Below, in pieces: positions 1 to 13,260 of a DNA stretch of 64,000 nucleotides (positions are counted from its first letter, which is position 1; each line of letters opens with the position of its first letter). The position numbers and the translations under genes were made by a program. The stretch is from assembly GCF_007747995.1 (NCBI RefSeq), contig NZ_CP036276.1, forward strand, positions 6,810,001 through 6,874,000, given 5' to 3'. A model generated the notes under the pieces. That model was not told where the DNA came from, did no database searches, and was given only the letters and a program-made list of their open reading frames with translations. The DNA comes from Symmachiella dynata. GTDB taxonomy: Bacteria; Planctomycetota; Planctomycetia; Planctomycetales; Planctomycetaceae.

Positions 1-2113
1 ACATGAATCCCATGAAGATCATCATGTACTTCATCATCTTAGCCTGCATGGCCGATTGTTCGTCGGTTGGCGGCGGCATGAATAATTTTTGCTGGACGAT
101 GAACAGTACAATCGTGATGATCGGCAGTAGATTGAACGTATCGCCTAAACTAAAGGGGAGATTGAAGCCCAAGGGAAAGAGTGCGTCTGGAGCGGCAAGG
201 TTGTCGATCCACAAAAAGTGAGCCATCCGCAGATTCACGCTGCTCCGCAGTGCGGTATACAGACCGAAAAAGACCGGCATTTGAATGAACAGCACCAGAC
301 AGCCGCTAAAGGGGTTGTACTTGTGTTTGCGGAACAACTCCATCTGGGCGCGGCCCATTTTTTCCCGGTCGTCGCCGTACTTCTTTTTCAGCGCATCGAT
401 TTCCGGTTTGATCTCCTGCATCTTCGCGGCGCCCAGTGCCTGCTTGCGGGAGAGCGGGAACATGCACAAGCGAACCATGACCGTGAGCAAGATGATTGCC
501 ACGCCATAGTTGGGAATCACCGCGTAGAACATATCCAGCAACCACAACATCACCTTGGCGATGGCTCCGAACCAGCCGAGATCCATAATCGCCTCGGCGC
601 CGTGCGGCTCCAGCAATTCTTTCCGTTTTGGTCCCGCAAAGAGTTCGTACTCATGTGTCAGCGTTTCACCCGGTTTTAAGTCTGCGTCGTTGGAGGTGAT
701 CGACACACTAATGTCGGTCCGCTCGGGATGCTCCTTGTCGATGGTGCCGCTGGCGACTTGCGTATAGTTACGAAAATAGGAGTTATCCAAAGTCGGTTCG
801 TTGGCGGGCTGCAGGAAGGCGGCGAAGTATTGCGCATCAACGCCGATATATTTGAGAATCGGTTGATCCCACAGGCTCGTTTCCCCTTCGGCGATTTCCT
901 GGGCTGAAAGCGAGTCGGAATGAAAAGTCTTGTCTTCACGATCTAAAAACGCGAATTGCACATCGCGAAACTTGCGAGCCCCGACCACGCTTTCCAGCGG
1001 AACGCCCACCGGACCTTGCAGAACATAATTGACGTTCTGCGCTTCTTTTGACAGGTTCTTGATGCTGAAATCAAAATCGAGGACATAAGCGCCAACTTCG
1101 TCTTCCGGTTTGTCCCCTTTGGCCTTATTCACCTGATAAGTCTTGGTCAATTCGAATCGGCCATCGGGCGAAGTGATGCGAAAGACCGCCTTGGAACCGT
1201 CTTTTGCCTTCTCCACCAATTCCCAATTCACCGAATTCAGCGATTCAATCGCCTCGGCAAATTGGTCTTCAATTTGCGGCACCGTGACCTGTAAGGTCAT
1301 CGGTGTCAGCATGGGTGCACCGATCTCGATCCAACGCACAATGTCGTTGATGTCTTCGGCGGAGAGCTTCTTCCCCTTGGGGGGCATTTTGAAGTTCTCG
1401 TTCTCCTGCCGGATGGCCTGCACAATCAAACTGTGGCTGGGGTCGCCGGGGACGACCGGCGCACCGGTATCACTGCCGGCCAACAAACCGTTGCGGGAAT
1501 CAATCCGAAAGCCCCCCGCCGGTCCGGGCTTGGCGTGGCATTTGTAACAATTTTTGCGGAAGATCGATTGGACTTTAAGAACCAGTTGGTCCTGTTGCAG
1601 TTGTTCTTTGCGCAGCTTATCGCGGTCCGCCTGATCGCTACTACCAACAACCTTCAACGGGGCTTGGCGATCCTTGAGGTTGCGATACCGCGGATCGTTG
1701 AGTTCCACATACTCGATAGCCGCGCCGCGGGTATCGATCGTCACAGCCATGCGAAAACCGCTGTCGGGATCGTCAGATCCGATCAGGACTGTCTCGTTTG
1801 GGAACTGTGGAATCTTGAGGTCGGTAACCGCTGGCTGTTCTTGCTTGTCGGCATCCTCCGGAGCCGCATCGTCTCCGGCAGCTTCGGCAACGGCTGCCTT
1901 CTCCTCGGGATCCTTCACATCGTCGGCGGCATCCGCCGGTGGCGCATCGGGTTCCTGATCCGCTACTGCGGCTTTTTGCGGATCTTTCTCGGCAACCTCA
2001 GCATTCGCGGCTGGTTTGTTGGGTTGCTGTGGTGGGGGATTGAACCACATCCACCCCAAATAGATCGCCGACGCAGCGACCATAAAAATCCAAAAGCGTT
2101 GATTATTTTCCAT
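1..2113 (-). CDS. yidC: YidC/Oxa1-type membrane insertase with inserted c-type haem domain (3' end beyond window)
   Basis: Membrane protein insertase that helps place and fold inner-membrane proteins, with or without SecYEG. Reading the minus strand gives 704 residues without a stop before the window edge. It starts MENNQRFWIFMVAAS with a TM helix at about 7-23, followed by a long Ala/Glu/Asp-rich linker to about 90. The periplasmic beta domain begins near 100 and resumes after about 255 (a stretch near SPDGRFELTKTYQV is typical). The conserved insertase core starts near 510 and keeps the groove arginine (TVMVRLCMFPLS) and a QMPVFFGLYTALR segment. Odd: residues about 178-252 form a planctomycete-type cytochrome domain with NCYKCH (C189, C192, H193) and a possible axial Met in FKMPPKGKKLS. 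The frame is continuous on both sides of this insert, so it is not an assembly join of two genes. The C-terminus is not visible. Family call is certain; haem loading is inferred. Confidence 0.93.
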   Translation of the reverse strand, partial: MENNQRFWIFMVAASAIYLGWMWFNPPPQQPNKPAANAEVAEKDPQKAAVADQEPDAPPADAADDVKDPEEKAAVAEAAGDDAAPEDADKQEQPAVTDLKIPQFPNETVLIGSDDPDSGFRMAVTIDTRGAAIEYVELNDPRYRNLKDRQAPLKVVGSSDQADRDKLRKEQLQQDQLVLKVQSIFRKNCYKCHAKPGPAGGFRIDSRNGLLAGSDTGAPVVPGDPSHSLIVQAIRQENENFKMPPKGKKLSAEDINDIVRWIEIGAPMLTPMTLQVTVPQIEDQFAEAIESLNSVNWELVEKAKDGSKAVFRITSPDGRFELTKTYQVNKAKGDKPEDEVGAYVLDFDFSIKNLSKEAQNVNYVLQGPVGVPLESVVGARKFRDVQFAFLDREDKTFHSDSLSAQEIAEGETSLWDQPILKYIGVDAQYFAAFLQPANEPTLDNSYFRNYTQVASGTIDKEHPERTDISVSITSNDADLKPGETLTHEYELFAGPKRKELLEPHGAEAIMDLGWFGAIAKVMLWLLDMFYAVIPNYGVAIILLTVMVRLCMFPLSRKQALGAAKMQEIKPEIDALKKKYGDDREKMGRAQMELFRKHKYNPFSGCLVLFIQMPVFFGLYTALRSSVNLRMAHFLWIDNLAAPDALFPLGFNLPFSLGDTFNLLPIITIVLFIVQQKLFMPPPTDEQSAMQAKMMKYMMIFMGFM

Positions 2114-2116
2114 TGT

Positions 2117-2932
2117 TTACCGGCCGTCGCGGAGGCGATCCCCCAGGAAGTTATCGAGATCGGGGATGTCGTAAATTTTTCCCGCCGTGTCTTCAAAACC
2201 ATAATCAACGCGGCGATATGTCAATTTGGCCGGAGGAGCGGGTGTGGCCGACTCCACGTCGGTCTCAGCGGCCGCTTCGGCCTCGGCGTCGGATATGTTT
2301 TCATTTTCTAACACAACATAACAAGCGCGGGGATCGCCATCGCGCGGCTGTCCCACAGAGCCGACATTGACCATCAACTTGCCGCCGGTCAATTCATATT
2401 CGTGATTGATTTCCGACGGACTGAAGAAATTCAAGTTTTCGGTGAAGACGCCGGGAACGTGTGTGTGTCCCTGAAAACAATACTTTTGAATGAGTCCGAA
2501 GATCCGCTCCATCTTGAGTTGGTTGTAGATGTCTTCGGGAAAGACATATTCGTTAAGCGGGTTGCGAGCGGACCCGTGCACAAACTTAAAGTCGCCCTCG
2601 TTGTGCATGCGGGGCAATTCCCCCAGGAACTCCCAACGGCGTTCATTGCCGGCCGGATCACCCGATTCTAAGACCGAGCGTGTCCAAAAAATTGCTCGTT
2701 CTGCTCCGGCGTTAAAACCCTCAGGATCAAACAGCGCCCCTTGATCGTGGTTTCCCAGCAGGCACATCTTGCACGACTTCATCACTAAATCGACGCATTC
2801 ACGCGGGTTGGGGCCGTATCCGACCACATCACCCAGGCAATAGATTTCGTCGATTCCCAAACCTTTGATGTCCGCGAGTACGGCCTCGAGGGCTTCCAGG
2901 TTTCCATGAATGTCGCTGATGATGGCTTTCAA
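2117..2932 (-). CDS. calcineurin-like metallophosphoesterase (YfcE/MJ0936-like)
   Basis: Predicted cytoplasmic phosphodiesterase or phosphatase with a dinuclear metal centre; the substrate is unknown. The 271 residues contain the ordered family motifs: DIHGN at 7-11, [10 protein letters not shown] near 34-43, GNHDQGA near 60, and GHTHVPG near 155. The C-terminal 60 residues form an acidic, Ala/Glu-rich linker and a tail not needed for the fold. The start is TTG: the in-frame codons upstream are only CTG-AAT after a TAA, so no ATG is available. Its TAA stop lies 3 nt before the ATG of yidC, so the two are probably cotranscribed with this gene first. No clear Shine-Dalgarno is visible. A link to membrane protein insertion is only suggested by the spacing. 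Confidence 0.88.
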
Positions 2933-2941
2933 ATTCAGTTA

Positions 2942-3400
2942 CACCGTCGCAAAAATATGGATGTACGGGGAGACGTTTCGAACCTTAGGCCCGGATCAGG
3001 CACGCTGCAAGTCACCTGGGAAGCGGTTAAGTCGCAAAGCCTACAAAATAACATGGTCTGACGAGAATGAAACTCAAAGCGCCCCAGCAATTTAATCGAA
3101 CCGGCCGCAGTGTGTTTACCAAGCCTACTCTACTCGGATTCCGAGTATCCAGGCCGCGAAATATCAACTTCGCGAATTAACACCTGCGCATGGCGACCGA
3201 AATTCCTGCCTCCGAAAGCCATCTACGCTCAGCCACCCCCCTCTCGAGCGAATCGGGTGACATCATGATTCAATAATACAGGGGGTAAACAGCAATTCTA
3301 GCGTGGTCGAAGTCGGATGAGTAGGGAAAAACTGCATTCTCCATGAGGCAATGCTCCTCACTCGGTGCCTAAATCGCCCCCCGTCGCTTCTGAGTGAACG
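2942..3400. other. intergenic region with one short palindrome
   Basis: No convincing gene in this 459-base gap between two genes on the same strand. It should hold the promoter of the phosphoesterase-yidC unit. The only structure noticed is a perfect palindrome, TACTCGG-ATT-CCGAGTA, at 3131-3147, which could be an operator or one more member of the three-nucleotide-loop palindromes described elsewhere in the window. Confidence 0.4.
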
Positions 3401-4552
3401 TTATACCGTAACGACTAAATTGTCGCGGTGAACAATTTCTACATATGGGAGTGATTCGTACAATTGGGCGATATCTTCGCTTCTTTTGCCTGCCAACTGG
3501 CGAATCTCCGCCGTGCTGTAGTTCGTCAGGCCGCGGGCAAATTCGTTTCCCGTTGCGTCAATCAACGCAACCACGTCTCCTTTTTCCACCTGTCCCTCGA
3601 CTCCGACGATTCCGATGGCCAACAACGAACGGCCATCCCGCTCAACGGCTGTCCGCGCTCCGGCATCTAGAATCAGCTTGCCCTTGGGGGGCTTGGAATA
3701 ACCGATCCACCGTTTCCAAGCCGGAACCGAAACTCCCTGCGCCAGGAACAACGTCCCGGTTTCCTCGCCCGCTAAGACTTTCATCAATGTGCCCGATTTG
3801 GTCCCGTTCGCAATGATGACGTTTTCCCCCACGGCCGTCGCCATTTTAACCGCGCTGAGCTTAGCGCGCATGCCGCCCGTCCCGCGTTTGCTGCGGTCGG
3901 CGGTCGCTATTTGCAGCAGTTTGTCGTCCCATTCCTTGACCAACGGAATCGTCTTTGAATCCGAATTATCCGGAGGGCCATCCATGAGACCGTCCACGGT
4001 CGATAAGATGACTAGCAACGGCGAATGCATCAGATTTGTGACCAATGCGGCCAATCGATCGTTGTCGCCAAAAGCGATTTCGTCGACGCTCACGGTATCG
4101 TTCTCATTGACGATGGGAACTGCACCGTTTTCAAACAGCGTCAAAATCGTATTGCGGACGTTGAGATATCGCGAACGGTTGTCGAAATCGTCAGCAGTGA
4201 GCAGCAACTGAGCCGCGTGACAGCCATGTTTCTTCAAACAATCGTCATAATGCCGGATCAAGTGGGCTTGTCCGATGGCAGCAGCAGCCTGCAAATGCGG
4301 CAGATCGCGGGGCCGTTGGCGCAAACCGAGCAATCCCATGCCGGCACCGACCGCCCCGCTGGAGACCAAGACAACCCGCCGGCCGGTTTCACGAACACGC
4401 TGGATTTCCTCGCTCAACGCACTCAGTCGCTCGAGATTGAGCGTATCGTCTTCGCGGGACAGGACGCTTGTCCCGACTTTGACGACCAACGTGCGGGCGG
4501 TTTCAATCACCTCGCGGCGAACCAGATTGACCATGTCGCGGTTTCCATCCAA
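3401..4552 (-). CDS. proB: glutamate 5-kinase with C-terminal PUA domain
   Basis: Phosphorylates L-glutamate to gamma-glutamyl phosphate, the first step of proline synthesis, in the cytoplasm. The 383 residues match the full-length two-domain form. The amino-acid kinase domain (about 15-270) shows [22 protein letters not shown], the substrate segment [22 protein letters not shown], and [12 protein letters not shown]. The PUA domain (about 290-375) begins near [13 protein letters not shown] and is often tied to proline feedback. Two starts are possible, MDGNRD or MVNLVR six residues later; neither has a strong ribosome site. No proA or obg neighbour is present, and the divergent purF-type gene begins about 200 bases away. 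Confidence in function is high. Confidence 0.95.
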
Positions 4553-4768
4553 TGAAATTTGGGAAACCTCGAATTTACCGCATGGCTCGGTTTACGGCAA
4601 CTTGATCGACTTTACGGTCATTTCCATCGCCGGCGGTGAGAATTCGTTCATTTGTTGGTTGGTTCGCAGCGGCTGGTTGAGTATGATGCCAAAGTATTAA
4701 GGAAGCATAAAGACGCACTTGCTTTCCTCGCCCCACCCTCGCATCCCTAAGTGAATGCCGAATCACCG

Positions 4769-6361
4769 ATGGCCGAGTTGAATCACGAGTGCGGCGTTGC
4801 CGCGGTTTATCACCTTCCCGACCGTGGCGTCAGCCCGCTCGCCCCCCCTCAAGGTGTGGAACATACATCCAATTTGATTCCGCGGTTGCTGCTCGATATC
4901 CAAAATCGCGGCCAATTGGCAGCGGGGATGACGACCTTCAATCCGCACCGCAATCAACTCATCGATACCCACAAAGACGTGGGCACGGTGACCGAAGTCT
5001 TCCATTTAAACCATCAGGATAGCTACAGATCCCTGATGCGCAAGTACGCTGGACGGGCCGCGATTGGACACGTTCGCTACGCCACGTGCGGCAAGGATGA
5101 CAAAAGCTACGCGCAGCCCTTCGAACGGCATCATATCGAAAAACCGAAATGGTTTAGCTTTGCCTTCAATGGTCAGTTGGCGAACTATCCGCGTTTGCGG
5201 GATGAAATCCTCTCGGAGAACGATTTCCACCTCGCGCGCGAAACCGACACCGAAGTCTTGATGCATATGATTTGTCATCAACTCTCGGGAGATCGTCGGC
5301 CGGAAATGATCGAAATGCTCACGGAACTGAGCCTGCATTTCGACGGCGCCTATAACATCGTCTACCTCAACGCACTGGGCAACATGTTTGTCGCCCGCGA
5401 TCCCTTGGGGATTCGACCGCTGTGTTACGCGAAAGAAGGCCCGCTCTTCGCCGCCGCGAGCGAATCGGTCGCCTTGGCCAATCTTGGATTTCGCGAATCC
5501 AGCATTAAAAGCCTGCACCCGGGCGAAGCGGTCATCATTCGCGATGGCGAGTTTTCGATTCAGCAATTCACCGCCAGCCCCAATCGCGCCCACTGTTTCT
5601 TTGAGTGGATTTATTTCGCCAACGTCGCCAGTACGCTGGATGACCAAAGTGTCTACCTGACCCGTAAGCGGCTGGGCGAGGAATTGGCTGATGTGGAAAC
5701 TCTGGAGATCGACGAAGACACGATCGTCGTCCCGGTTCCCGACACGGCCAAAGCGGCAGCCGATAGCTTGGCCTTTCAACTGAAAGTCCCCTGTCTGGAA
5801 GGCCTGATTCGCAATCGCTATGTCGGGCGGACCTTCATCGAGGGAGCCAACCGCGCTGACAAAGCCAAGACCAAATACACGCCGCTACCCGAAGTTCTTC
5901 GCGGCAAGAAAGTCCTGCTCGTCGAGGATACGATCGTCCGTTCGACGACCATGAAGGTTTTAGTCTCGCAACTCAAGGAGCGGGGCGGAGCGAGCGAAGT
6001 TCATGTGCGGGTGGCTTGCCCGCCGATCATCGCCCCCTGTTTTTACGGAATCGACATGTCGACGATTTCGGAGTTGTTCGCGCCGAAGTTCATGGACAAC
6101 GGCCCGCTGACGCCGGAAATTGAAGTCACGATGGCCGAGACGCTGGGAGCGGACAGCTTAAAGTATCTGCCCATCGAAGCGATTTCTCGCTGCGTCGGCT
6201 TTCCCAAAGAATCGTTGTGCCAAGCCTGCATCGACGGAAAATATCCCACTCCCGCCGGTGTGCAGCTGTACCAAATCGCCCTCGAAAAACTAGAATTGGG
6301 CGAAGAAGAAAACGACGGGCGGGCCTATGACGCCCCTTTATCGGTGACGGCCCGAACCTAG
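4769..6361 (+). CDS. purF: amidophosphoribosyltransferase (PurF-type)
   Basis: Transfers the glutamine amide nitrogen to PRPP to make phosphoribosylamine, the committed step of purine synthesis. Class II glutaminase domain: catalytic Cys in [10 protein letters not shown], then [20 protein letters not shown] and [12 protein letters not shown]. Phosphoribosyltransferase domain: the PRPP loop [15 protein letters not shown]. Cysteines in [20 protein letters not shown] and SLCQAC fit the [4Fe-4S] type known from Bacillus. The ATG start puts the nucleophile at residue 8, so a short propeptide would be cut off; a GTG at 4751 would add six residues. The motif NRGQLAAG differs from the usual HRGQESAG, so this may be a divergent subgroup. 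It is transcribed away from proB; no other pur gene is nearby. Confidence 0.88.
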
Positions 6362-6492
6362 GCCTCGACGTGCGCCAGTCGATGTTTCCGCTGCAGCCTG
6401 ACGATTCCACCAAGGAAGAGCCTCCCGAGGAAACCGACGACACGCCGGACGACGATCGCTAATTCCTTTCGCCAGATCTATACAAAAACAAC

Positions 6493-6882
6493 ATGCTCCG
6501 CGAACACGAAATCCAAGTCCGCGTCCGGTATAGCGAAACCGACGCCATGGGTTACCTGCATCACGCCAACTATCTCAACTTCTTCGAGATGGGCCGCACG
6601 GAACTACTGCGAGCCTCCGGGGGAAATTATCGCTCCGTTGAAGAGCAAGGACTGTTCATCGTTGTTGTCAAAATGGAAGTCCGCTATCGCGCCCCGGCTC
6701 GATACGACGACATGCTGACCGTCAAAACCCAACTCATCCGTTCTTCGCCGGCGAAGTTGATCCACAACTACCAAGTCTTCCGCGACGACGTTTTGCTCTG
6801 CGAAGCGGAGACCCTGTTGGGGTGCGTCGATGCCGAAGGGAAGATCCAACGTATGCCGGATTTCTTGAGCGAGCAATCGTAA
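6493..6882 (+). CDS. acyl-CoA thioesterase, 4HBT/YbgC family
   Basis: Predicted hot-dog-fold thioesterase that hydrolyses acyl-CoA or related thioesters in the cytoplasm; the natural substrate cannot be read from sequence. The 129 residues are the usual size. The active-site region [20 protein letters not shown] has the family Asp (D17) and the HANYL helix start. The ATG is preceded by ACAAAAACAAC, without a Shine-Dalgarno. It follows the purF-type gene by about 130 bases and may be transcribed with it. YbgC members often sit with tol-pal genes; none is here, so a general acyl-CoA role is as likely. Confidence 0.88.
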
Positions 6883-9108: not shown

Positions 9109-12100
9109 ATGCCCCGCCCGTTGATGTGCCTGCTCTGTCTCCTGATGCTCGGACTATTCGTCGCACCGGTTGTGGCGGTGGAAGAAGACGAAGAGGATGC
9201 GGATTATCTGCCCGGACTGTCCGCCGTCTATTCGTCCGGTAAAAAAACAATTCGCCGGATCGATCCAGACATTGAGTTTGTCTGGGGAACCGCCAGCCCC
9301 GATCCGCGCTTGCCAGCGGGCCCCTTTCAAGCCAAGTGGCAAGGGCGATTGCTGTTGCAGGAGCCGAGCACTTACCGGTTCTACGCTTACGTCCAAGGTC
9401 AAGTGACGATCACGCTGGACGGAAAAGAAGTGCTTTCTGGAAAGCCGCAACAGCCGGGGTGGATCAAAGGTCCGCCGTTGGAATTCGATTTCGGTGAGTT
9501 TGAACTGGATGTGCAGTACAAAAAAACGGGAAAGGCCGGTCAGCTCAAACTGTTTTGGTCCGCGGACCGCTTCGACCGCGAACCATTGCCGGCACGGTTT
9601 CTGTACCGCAATGACATTGCCGCCGACCTGAAACAAATTGAACGGGGGCAAAGGGCTTTCGCTGCCCACCGCTGCAATCGCTGCCATCGTGGAGAACAGG
9701 AACAACTCAGCGCCCCGGCTCCCAGTTTAGTACATGCTGCCGGCGGGTTGTCGCGTGCTTGGATCGTCGATCAATTGTCCGGCGCTGCAGCTGACGATCC
9801 GCATGCCAACATGCCGCAATTTGGTTTCGATCGCAAACAAGCTGAGACCATCGCCGCATTTTTACTACAAGGCGATCCGGTCGCCACCACGGATATGCCC
9901 GCAGCTAAAGATGAAACCGTCGCGCGTCGGGAAGGCGAAATTCTGTTGCGCTCCGTCGGGTGCCTCGCCTGCCATACTCATGGTGAGTACGGAACGACTT
10001 CAGAATATACCGGTGGGGACCTAAGCCAGATTGGCAAAAAGCGAAGCCGCGATTGGATCTACACCTGGTTGGCCCACCCGGAGAAATTGAATCGTGACCA
10101 CCGCATGCCGGTGGTCAAATTGACGAAAGAAGAACGCGCGCAATTGGCGCTCTATTTAACGCCGACTGAGCAATCGGCTGATCCAGGCAAATCACAACAA
10201 GACTCGGCGGAAAAAATCGAAGCCGGTCGCGCATTAGTCCTCACGGCCCGCTGCGCCAACTGTCACCGCATTCCGGGTGTTGATGAAAACCTCGCCAACA
10301 TTCCGAAGTTGTCCGCCGCGACAATGAAATCGGCGCAGTCTTGTTTGTCCGCACTACCCGCGGACCAACATTCCCGCCCAGTTTATCCGCACGTCGATTC
10401 AGCAGACATTGCCGCTTATGTCGCGGCGCATGATGAACTGCTGACTCCCATTGGAGAATTTGAACAGGGGCGGCAACTGTTGGTGCAGCGGAATTGCTTG
10501 AACTGCCATGAACGCGACCTGGGCAAAGGAATCGTGGCCATTGCCGGAAAGATGTCGCGGGTCGATGAAACCTTGCAGGGACAAAGCGAAGCACTCATTC
10601 CGCCGGCGCTGACAGCGGTTGGCGATAAGTTGAAAGATGACGCGCTGTCCGAGGCCGTCAGCGGTGAACAAAAGAAACCGCGGCTGCCTTGGCTCAAAGT
10701 CCGCATGCCGCGATTTCAGCATACCGATGCCGAAAAACAAGCCTTGACGAAATACCTAATCGGCCATGATCGCATCCCGAGTTTTAATACTGACCCGCCC
10801 GCCAAAGTCACGGAGACCGAGCGCAGGCAAGCCTTGATTGCCGGACATGAACTTGTCGGTGGCAAAGGGTTTAGTTGCGTTGCTTGCCATGCCTTTGGCA
10901 AGTTCGAACCGCGCAACGTCGCACTGGGCACCCGTGGTTCTGATCTGCTGATGTTGGGCCAGCGCATGCGGCGGGAGTATTTCCTGCGGTGGACACGTTC
11001 GCCCTTGCGGATTGTGCCGGGTATGGAGATGCCTTCGTTCGACAAACCGGTTCCAAAAATTCTGGCCGGCAATCATGATCGGCAATTGGCGGCGATCTGG
11101 GATGGCCTCAACGATCCCAACTTCACCGTGCCGACCAATCCTTCGGTAGTCGAACAATATTTGGTCGTCCGCCCCGATGAACCCCCGCGCATCGTGCGCG
11201 ACGTGTTCACGAATCACAAAGCAGATGGTGGTTATACGCCGCGCTCATTCGCCGTAGGACTACCGAATCGGCACAATGTGTTTTACGACCTCGATACGTT
11301 TTCGCTACGCCAATGGTGGCTGGGCGATTTTGCCCGCCAACGCACGCAAGGCAAAAGTTGGTTTTGGGACGCGGCCGGTGTGACCATTGCCGTGGGAACA
11401 CCCAACGCCCCCGACATCGCACTCCACGCCGACGGTACCGCAGCCGATGCGTTGTTGATTCCTACCCGCGACCAAGGCACACACGGCCGCTTGGTCGGTT
11501 ATCATACTGACAGCAACGGTGTGCAGCTTGAATATGTCTTGAATTTCCCCAACGACCGGCAACTGCACGTCACTGAAACGATCGGTCCGGTCATGGACCC
11601 GGACCGTCCTCAACTGACAGGTTGGACGCGCCGTATTTCCGTGAGCGGCATCCCGGAGGGATTCCAGGCGGTTTTATTACATCGCACGCCCGAGGTCGCG
11701 TTTGGCAATCCCCTGGTCGAAGCCATAGACGAATCGGCCACACCGTGGGAGTCCGTTTCGGCCGATGGCAAAACTCAAGGCAGCGTGATTGACAAAACGG
11801 GTGATACGGCCTTGGGAGCATTTCGCTACCTGTGCGAACTGAAACCGGAGGAACTCGGCAAGAATCCCGCAACGCCTTCGAAATTCCCCATCGAAAAAAT
11901 CACCTCGGTGCCGGGATATGACGGAATCCGTCTGCCATTGTCACGATCGATTATGCCGACAGCGATCGCCTGGACGCATGACGGAAAGATGGTGTTCACC
12001 TCCCTCAAAGGGCATGTTTACATCGCCGAGGATACCGATGGCGATGGCATTGAGGATGAATTGAAGCTCTTCGAAGAAGGACTCGCCGCTGCTTACGGTG

Positions 12101-13260
12101 TGATCGCCGACGGAGCGGATTTGATCGTGGCCCACAAACCGGAATTGCTACGACTGCGCGACACCGACGGCGATGGCCGCGCGGATGTGCGAGAAGTCGT
12201 CGCTACTGGCTGGGGTTTCAACGACAATTACCACGACTGGACGACCGGCATCGTGCGGGACTCAGCCGGCAATATGTACGTGGGACTGGGCAGTGACTAT
12301 GCACAAAAAAAACGGCGGGCCGAACACACACGTTGGCGCGGTAAAGTGCTGCGGATCGATCCGTCGGGCAAGATCGAACCGTTAGGGCACGACCTGCGTT
12401 ACCCTACCGGGCTGGCGATCGATCAAGAGGATCGTGTCTACATGTCCGATCAACAAGGAGTGCAGAACACCTTCAATGAGATCAACCATCTCGTGCCGGG
12501 ACGGGGTTACGGCGTGACCAGTCCGCATCGTGACTCACCCGATTCGCCTCCCATGTGGCCGGCAGTGCAACTGCCGCACCCCTGGACGCGGAGCGTGAAC
12601 GGCATCTTCTTTTTGAACTCTGAACGTGACAATAAAAACCAAGTCTTCGGCCCCTTCGCCGGTCATGGCATTGGCTGTGAATACGACACACGGGCGCTGA
12701 TTCGCTTCACGACGCAACAAGTCGGTGACGTTCTGCAAGGCGCCGCCTATCGACTCAGCCGCACGGACATCGAAGACGCCACCGCCAATTTCACCGGCGC
12801 GCTCAGCGGTGCTGTCAGCCCCGATGGCGACATCTACATCGGCAGCATTCACGATAGCGGATGGTTGGGCGGACACAATCTCGGCGACATCGTGCGGTTG
12901 CGACCCAATGGCAAATTGCCGCTCGGCATTCGCGAACTCCGCGCGAATCCGCAAGGCTTCACGTTGACCTTCACTGCCCCGGTGAATCGCGAAGCTGCCG
13001 CCGATCCGAAAAACTACACCATCTCCGCCTACACACGCATCTGGGAGGGTGGCTACGCAACTCCCGAATCGGGCCGCCACAAAGTGACCGTCACCGGCGC
13101 CCAAGTTTCTGAAGATGGCCGTGAAGTTATCTTGACTGTCGACGCGCTGCAGGAGAAATTTGTCTACGAAGTCAGCTGCGGCCGCATCGGCCCGGACCCC
13201 AACCAACCCCTTTGGCCGTCAATCGGCTACTACACCATGACCGTCGTCCCGAAAAAGTAG
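9109..13260 (+). CDS. PA14 / pentahaem cytochrome c / beta-propeller protein (planctomycete type)
   Basis: Large exported protein of 1383 residues. Signal peptide at 1-24 (hydrophobic LMCLLCLLMLGLFVAPVVA). A PA14-like sugar-binding domain covers about 35-165. Five CxxCH haem sites follow: C189 (CNRCH), C285 (CLACH), C382 (CANCH), C463 (CLNCH) and C590 (CVACH). A beta-rich region of unclear family spans about 690-910. A propeller like glucose/sorbosone dehydrogenases runs from about 935 to 1270 and contains calcium-type loops DTDGDGIEDE and DTDGDGRADV. An Ig-like C-terminal domain ends the chain. The likely role is periplasmic oxidation of a carbohydrate or alcohol with electrons passed through the haems; this is inferred from domain types. 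It is transcribed alone, and its TAG stop lies inside a 27-nt palindromic repeat. Confidence 0.88.
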   Translation: MPRPLMCLLCLLMLGLFVAPVVAVEEDEEDADYLPGLSAVYSSGKKTIRRIDPDIEFVWGTASPDPRLPAGPFQAKWQGRLLLQEPSTYRFYAYVQGQVTITLDGKEVLSGKPQQPGWIKGPPLEFDFGEFELDVQYKKTGKAGQLKLFWSADRFDREPLPARFLYRNDIAADLKQIERGQRAFAAHRCNRCHRGEQEQLSAPAPSLVHAAGGLSRAWIVDQLSGAAADDPHANMPQFGFDRKQAETIAAFLLQGDPVATTDMPAAKDETVARREGEILLRSVGCLACHTHGEYGTTSEYTGGDLSQIGKKRSRDWIYTWLAHPEKLNRDHRMPVVKLTKEERAQLALYLTPTEQSADPGKSQQDSAEKIEAGRALVLTARCANCHRIPGVDENLANIPKLSAATMKSAQSCLSALPADQHSRPVYPHVDSADIAAYVAAHDELLTPIGEFEQGRQLLVQRNCLNCHERDLGKGIVAIAGKMSRVDETLQGQSEALIPPALTAVGDKLKDDALSEAVSGEQKKPRLPWLKVRMPRFQHTDAEKQALTKYLIGHDRIPSFNTDPPAKVTETERRQALIAGHELVGGKGFSCVACHAFGKFEPRNVALGTRGSDLLMLGQRMRREYFLRWTRSPLRIVPGMEMPSFDKPVPKILAGNHDRQLAAIWDGLNDPNFTVPTNPSVVEQYLVVRPDEPPRIVRDVFTNHKADGGYTPRSFAVGLPNRHNVFYDLDTFSLRQWWLGDFARQRTQGKSWFWDAAGVTIAVGTPNAPDIALHADGTAADALLIPTRDQGTHGRLVGYHTDSNGVQLEYVLNFPNDRQLHVTETIGPVMDPDRPQLTGWTRRISVSGIPEGFQAVLLHRTPEVAFGNPLVEAIDESATPWESVSADGKTQGSVIDKTGDTALGAFRYLCELKPEELGKNPATPSKFPIEKITSVPGYDGIRLPLSRSIMPTAIAWTHDGKMVFTSLKGHVYIAEDTDGDGIEDELKLFEEGLAAAYGVIADGADLIVAHKPELLRLRDTDGDGRADVREVVATGWGFNDNYHDWTTGIVRDSAGNMYVGLGSDYAQKKRRAEHTRWRGKVLRIDPSGKIEPLGHDLRYPTGLAIDQEDRVYMSDQQGVQNTFNEINHLVPGRGYGVTSPHRDSPDSPPMWPAVQLPHPWTRSVNGIFFLNSERDNKNQVFGPFAGHGIGCEYDTRALIRFTTQQVGDVLQGAAYRLSRTDIEDATANFTGALSGAVSPDGDIYIGSIHDSGWLGGHNLGDIVRLRPNGKLPLGIRELRANPQGFTLTFTAPVNREAAADPKNYTISAYTRIWEGGYATPESGRHKVTVTGAQVSEDGREVILTVDALQEKFVYEVSCGRIGPDPNQPLWPSIGYYTMTVVPKK

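Follow-up and report, generated by a model that had tools for sequence, protein, structure and literature searches.

A PSCyt1-type cytochrome c domain within the periplasmic P1 domain of YidC in the planctomycete genus Symmachiella

The membrane protein insertase YidC is essential in bacteria where this has been tested, and it usually keeps its plan. The N-terminal helix, the P1 domain, which is periplasmic, and the insertase core are common to E. coli YidC (6al2, 3wvf), to the YidC/Oxa1/Alb3 family and to the YidC of Symmachiella, which differs from the E. coli protein in that its P1 holds a cytochrome c domain within some 114 additional residues. Domains of the same type, PSCyt1, lie near the N-terminus of PSCyt1-PSCyt2-PSD1 (DUF1549/DUF1553) proteins (868-1149 aa in the three that were scanned), whereas the domain in YidC is internal to a membrane insertase. 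The nearest member of this group in the host genome is 49-51% identical over the domain. Among the matches listed in a profile search of solved structures with the domain, FoxE (1.2e-13) and hydrazine synthase alpha (8.5e-7), both c-type haem proteins, were the nearest; these are redox proteins, not insertases. Another type of YidC, found in two other planctomycete families (f5 and f7), carries a PDZ domain, which is a peptide-binding domain. Like the Symmachiella protein, it has an extra P1 domain beside the PLxVV strand, but its PDZ stands before the strand and the cytochrome of Symmachiella after it. A review (PMC7618853) gives SecD and SecF, and probably emerging chains, as contacts of P1 in E. 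coli, and a 2017 paper states that nothing was known of the function of PSCyt domains (PMC5615132). Searches of an open-licence library of papers turned up no description of either a cytochrome or a PDZ domain in YidC. Both families are known, and their combination in one frame looks new.

The window, i.e., the whole stretch of 64,000 nucleotides that was analysed, comes from a genome that forms a single contig of 7,767,809 bases. The yidC gene lies on its minus strand (1..2113), as do all features of the protein given here. Its frame starts with ATG at window position 2113 and is open up to the window edge, and the gene continues for 239 bases past this edge, stop included, to give a protein of 783 aa (L002:3263-5614). 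The N-terminal helix, residues 2-24 (2042..2110), is presumed to be transmembrane from the AlphaFold2 model and the sequence. The first part of P1, residues 99-158 (1640..1819), has the PLKVVG strand at its end, and the remainder covers residues 273-525 (539..1297), where the Pfam family YidC_periplas matches at residues 296-525 (E 2.7e-12, 47.6 bits, cut-off 24, profile 71-283 of 283). The YidC/Oxa1 insertase core starts from residue 536 (1..508) and is matched by 60KD_IMP at residues 536-727 (E 1.6e-51, 174.9 bits, cut-off 35). Since PF02096 (60KD_IMP) has one match in the host genome at E <= 0.001, this protein is presumed to be the one that inserts membrane proteins, and no second, normal YidC was found in the same genome at that threshold.

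Between the two parts of P1 lies the insert, residues about 159-272 (1298..1639). PSCyt1 (PF07635) matches here at residues 189-247 (E 1.5e-13, 51.6 bits, cut-off 22, profile 1-59 of 59), and Cytochrome_CBB3 gives a weaker match between the two P1 parts (E 2.9e-8). Neither PSCyt2, PSD1 nor PDZ is among the six Pfam families that match this YidC at E <= 1. It was confirmed that a cytochrome c (PSCyt1) domain resides inside the P1 domain in one frame. A sequence-only reading had already made this claim, with the domain at 1318-1585, or residues 177-265; its identification holds with both PSCyt1 and YidC_periplas found, and its borders are now adjusted to residues about 180-268 (1310..1576) for the cytochrome-like part, within the longer insert. 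The NCYKCH motif and the KMPP methionine on which that reading drew are intact and conserved. The CYKCH haem-attachment motif occupies residues 189-193 (1535..1549), and Met243 (1385..1387) is the presumed second axial haem ligand. In an alignment of 29 domains, consisting of 26 PSCyt1 segments from genomes of the Symmachiella genus and the three inserts described below, CXXCH and the distal Met are invariant in 29/29, and an invariant Trp is kept too. All eight invariant columns of this alignment, including C189, C192, H193 and M243, are kept in the YidC of strain Mal52. The insert is beyond chance, because the PSCyt1 match has an E-value of 1.5e-13 and the eight invariant columns include the Met and the residues of the haem motif.

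Structure comparison agrees with these assignments to different degrees. The full-length AlphaFold2 model has a mean pLDDT of 78.1, with high values in most of P1 and the core and values below 50 at insert residues 191-203 and 205-223. Its best Foldseek match is E. coli YidC 6al2 (E 1.1e-25), 3blc was matched as well, and phmmer aligned residues 474-731 to 3wvf at E 1.3e-36. When the insert was modelled in isolation with the 29 aligned domains, the pLDDT was 88.2 and helices appeared where they would be expected in a cytochrome c. Foldseek matches of this model are weak, with 22 at E <= 10 and none at <= 0.001, and the top one is hydrazine synthase (E 0.13, probability 0.92). Seventeen of the 22 presumably are or contain cytochrome c domains, judging from their titles. 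The profile search weighs more for the identity of the domain; among the best 60 of its 70 structure matches, those below FoxE and hydrazine synthase alpha are mainly c-type cytochromes.

The insert is present in all three analysed genomes of the genus, where the whole protein aligns end to end. The YidCs of the other two genomes are 91% and 64% identical to that of Mal52 over the protein (BLAST). Within the family, 162 of 170 genomes matched an insert-less YidC, and 158 junctions could be judged, in 86 genomes by reading the frame and in 72 by one match spanning the junction. The remaining 155 of these 158 YidCs, those of the family's other genera, lack the insert, and CXXCH occurs only in the three proteins of the genus. 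A match counted as spanning the junction when its net excess did not go beyond 57 residues, which was so in 95 rows, 23 of which belong to genomes whose frames were read too; net excess may mask an insert offset by deletions, yet the best row of the three insert genomes began only past the insert. Four genomes with a YidC fragment only (G089, G098, G106 and G181) stand outside the 158, and in G115 the match barely passes the junction. In family f7, any match was obtained in 59 of 61 genomes, with no PSCyt1 match within a YidC frame and no CXXCH in the YidC frames of 11 genomes. In family f5, all 100 genomes had a match, and CXXCH was found in 0 of the 54 whose frames were read. A sample of the phylum gave a match in 191 of 199 genomes, and none beyond the host genome spanned the insert among the matches listed. 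CXXCH was seen in only one of 19 named loci, L072 (JANQPT010000038.1, 29227-31506), which fits G002:C38 and is the same genome as G002 of the genus. Among the matches listed, one other YidC had a match that spanned the insert region (G293, family f5). It was rejected as a second cytochrome-bearing YidC, as it is without CXXCH and its segment was read as PDZ-like.

The insert is under purifying selection. Between the Mal52 gene and that of G001, dN/dS is 0.20 in the insert, 0.16 in the N-terminal linker, 0.12 in P1a, 0.06 in P1b and 0.02 in the core, so that constraint on the insert is weaker than on most of YidC. Against G002 the insert gives 0.22, in a comparison where dS was not computable for P1a and P1b. 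CYKCH, DTG, PGD, KMPP and the Trp are identical in all three inserts. In a tree of the 29 domains, all from the Symmachiella genus, the three inserts form one clade (100/100) with a long stem (1.16). They belong to an open group of 10 rows supported at 84/90. Of its seven other members, two were scanned, together with one protein outside the group, and all three are large PSCyt1-PSCyt2-PSD1 proteins, in line with the earlier remark that this type of segment is usual in large proteins. PSCyt1 domains are plentiful in the host genome, in which the insert domain finds 32 matching places besides YidC (E <= 0.001). The best of them reaches 79.3 bits; among the matches listed, a domain from another family (G340) scores higher, at 88.1 bits and 52% identity, and a paralogue within the same genome is thus only a possible source.

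The position of the insert was compared with that of PDZ on a profile of 47 insert-less YidCs, in which the PLxVVG strand takes model positions 138-143. In the cytochrome-bearing YidCs, the second aligned segment begins at 148-149, past the strand, and the left edge of the insert is not sharp because the first segment continues into it. In PDZ-type YidCs, of which there were 23 (two look like the same protein), the second segment of the 8 clearest begins ahead of the strand, at 135-138, and the rest are ragged. The idea that PDZ and cytochrome share one loop was dropped, as the profile alignment puts them in adjacent loops on opposite sides of one strand. PDZ models match at E <= 0.01 in 7 of 10 YidCs scanned with Pfam, those seven having been chosen for it; the PDZ cut-off is exceeded in six, and L139 is slightly below. 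These seven, from f5, f7 and named relatives (L036, L041, L074, L080, L136, L139 and L140), have PDZ before the PLxVV strand in P1. A PDZ-like motif was also seen in 28 of 40 further YidC frames of f5. Other additions exist: L013 (G024) has, past the PLxVV strand and on the cytochrome's side, about 70 added residues that belong to no Pfam family, and L050 (G009) and L033 (G023) are long stop-to-stop YidC frames (1024 and 819 aa) whose additional sequence lies in other parts of the protein. Because PDZ stands across the same strand in f5 and f7, this part of P1 seems to be tolerant of added domains, and the PDZ arrangement suggests that it is a site where planctomycetes equip the insertase with new functions.

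How did a cytochrome domain come to be there, and what may it do? Most simply, there was one insertion in the ancestor of the Symmachiella genus, into the loop just past a short P1 strand of the only YidC found, and the domain would then have been retained by selection. Cytochrome c maturation operates in the periplasm. Since P1 is located on this side, the motif is intact and two places in the host genome match PF01578 (cytochrome c assembly family), haem is probably attached, at C189/C192 with H193 and M243 as ligands, and it is quite likely to be bound by the insert in vivo. Most likely the mono-haem domain forms an appendage with a fold of its own, the insertase core being unaltered, and it could offer a redox-active docking module next to membrane or exported haem proteins as they emerge. 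That the insert has some selected function is fairly probable, and the redox-docking role specifically is put forward tentatively. Taken as a whole, a single insertion kept by selection as a haem-loaded, redox-active docking appendage is the explanation we favour, with moderate confidence. The interpretation in the sequence-only reading is partly supported: the inserted domain and its intact haem motif hold up, whereas the further step, a link between the insertion of respiratory proteins and redox state or haem supply, is speculative. A stronger version, in which the sole insertase would respond to redox state or haem through this domain, so that insertion is gated or electrons are delivered during haem-protein assembly at the YidC-Sec site, appears unlikely. 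Through the insert, the assembly of membrane proteins could be connected with electron flow or haem. Symmachiella dynata Mal52 (DSM 101177) has been cultured (PMC7716862), and a haem-binding domain in its YidC would be a direct handle on whether electron transfer or haem supply can be linked to insertion.

The main rival to a selected appendage is a tolerated passenger, which folds and may bind haem, having arrived by chance in a permissive loop, with selection acting only against misfolding in an essential protein. Several observations fit such a history. According to the review PMC7618853, E. coli YidC with a large P1 deletion still inserts; additions are met across the same strand (PDZ in other families) and after it (the non-Pfam insert of G024); P1a, P1b and the core all evolve more slowly than the insert; and 155 of 158 assessable family members manage without it. 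However, the haem-motif residues are unchanged between proteins that are 64-67% identical, which suggests, without proving it, selection for haem beyond the fold, and we give the passenger a minor though real share of the probability. It could also be supposed that the PSCyt1 fold serves as a haem-free adaptor, a protein-binding module with haem absent or not always attached. The adjoining PDZ in other families and the PSCyt function called unknown in PMC5615132 would suit this, but CXXCH, Met and Trp are all intact, the domain faces the periplasm and the genome has members of the cytochrome c assembly family, so an adaptor without haem is improbable.

A genome with 32 further PSCyt1-matching places might in principle yield an artefact, by a misassembly or frame error that fuses a PSCyt1 gene to yidC. 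Against this, the genome is in one contig, the same junctions recur in two further genomes and the flanking order is as in relatives; a genuine single-frame insertion is practically certain, and an artefact can be dismissed almost entirely. A pseudogene was likewise rejected, given the one-contig genome and the open frame in all three genomes. Of the two things that the sequence-only reading had named as telling together against it, relatives without the insert do exist, but there is no frame break here and three genomes agree. Directly upstream of yidC is a metallophosphoesterase gene (2117..2932, minus strand), and the order phosphoesterase-yidC-mnmE, with mnmE outside the window, is shared by loci that have the insert and loci that lack it. 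Among 87 loci of 2.6 to 6.5 kb, which include several genomes twice and are in many cases too short for both genes, mnmE lies near yidC in 48 and the phosphoesterase in 71. Because the flanking genes are alike with and without the insert, the cytochrome domain was spliced into a resident gene; the same set in relatives without the insert also means that the neighbouring genes point to no partner of it. Rfam at gathering scores gave no match in window 1-6500. About 7 kb from yidC, window 9109-13257 (plus strand) encodes a protein of 1383 aa that matches PA14, cytochrome c and DUF7133.
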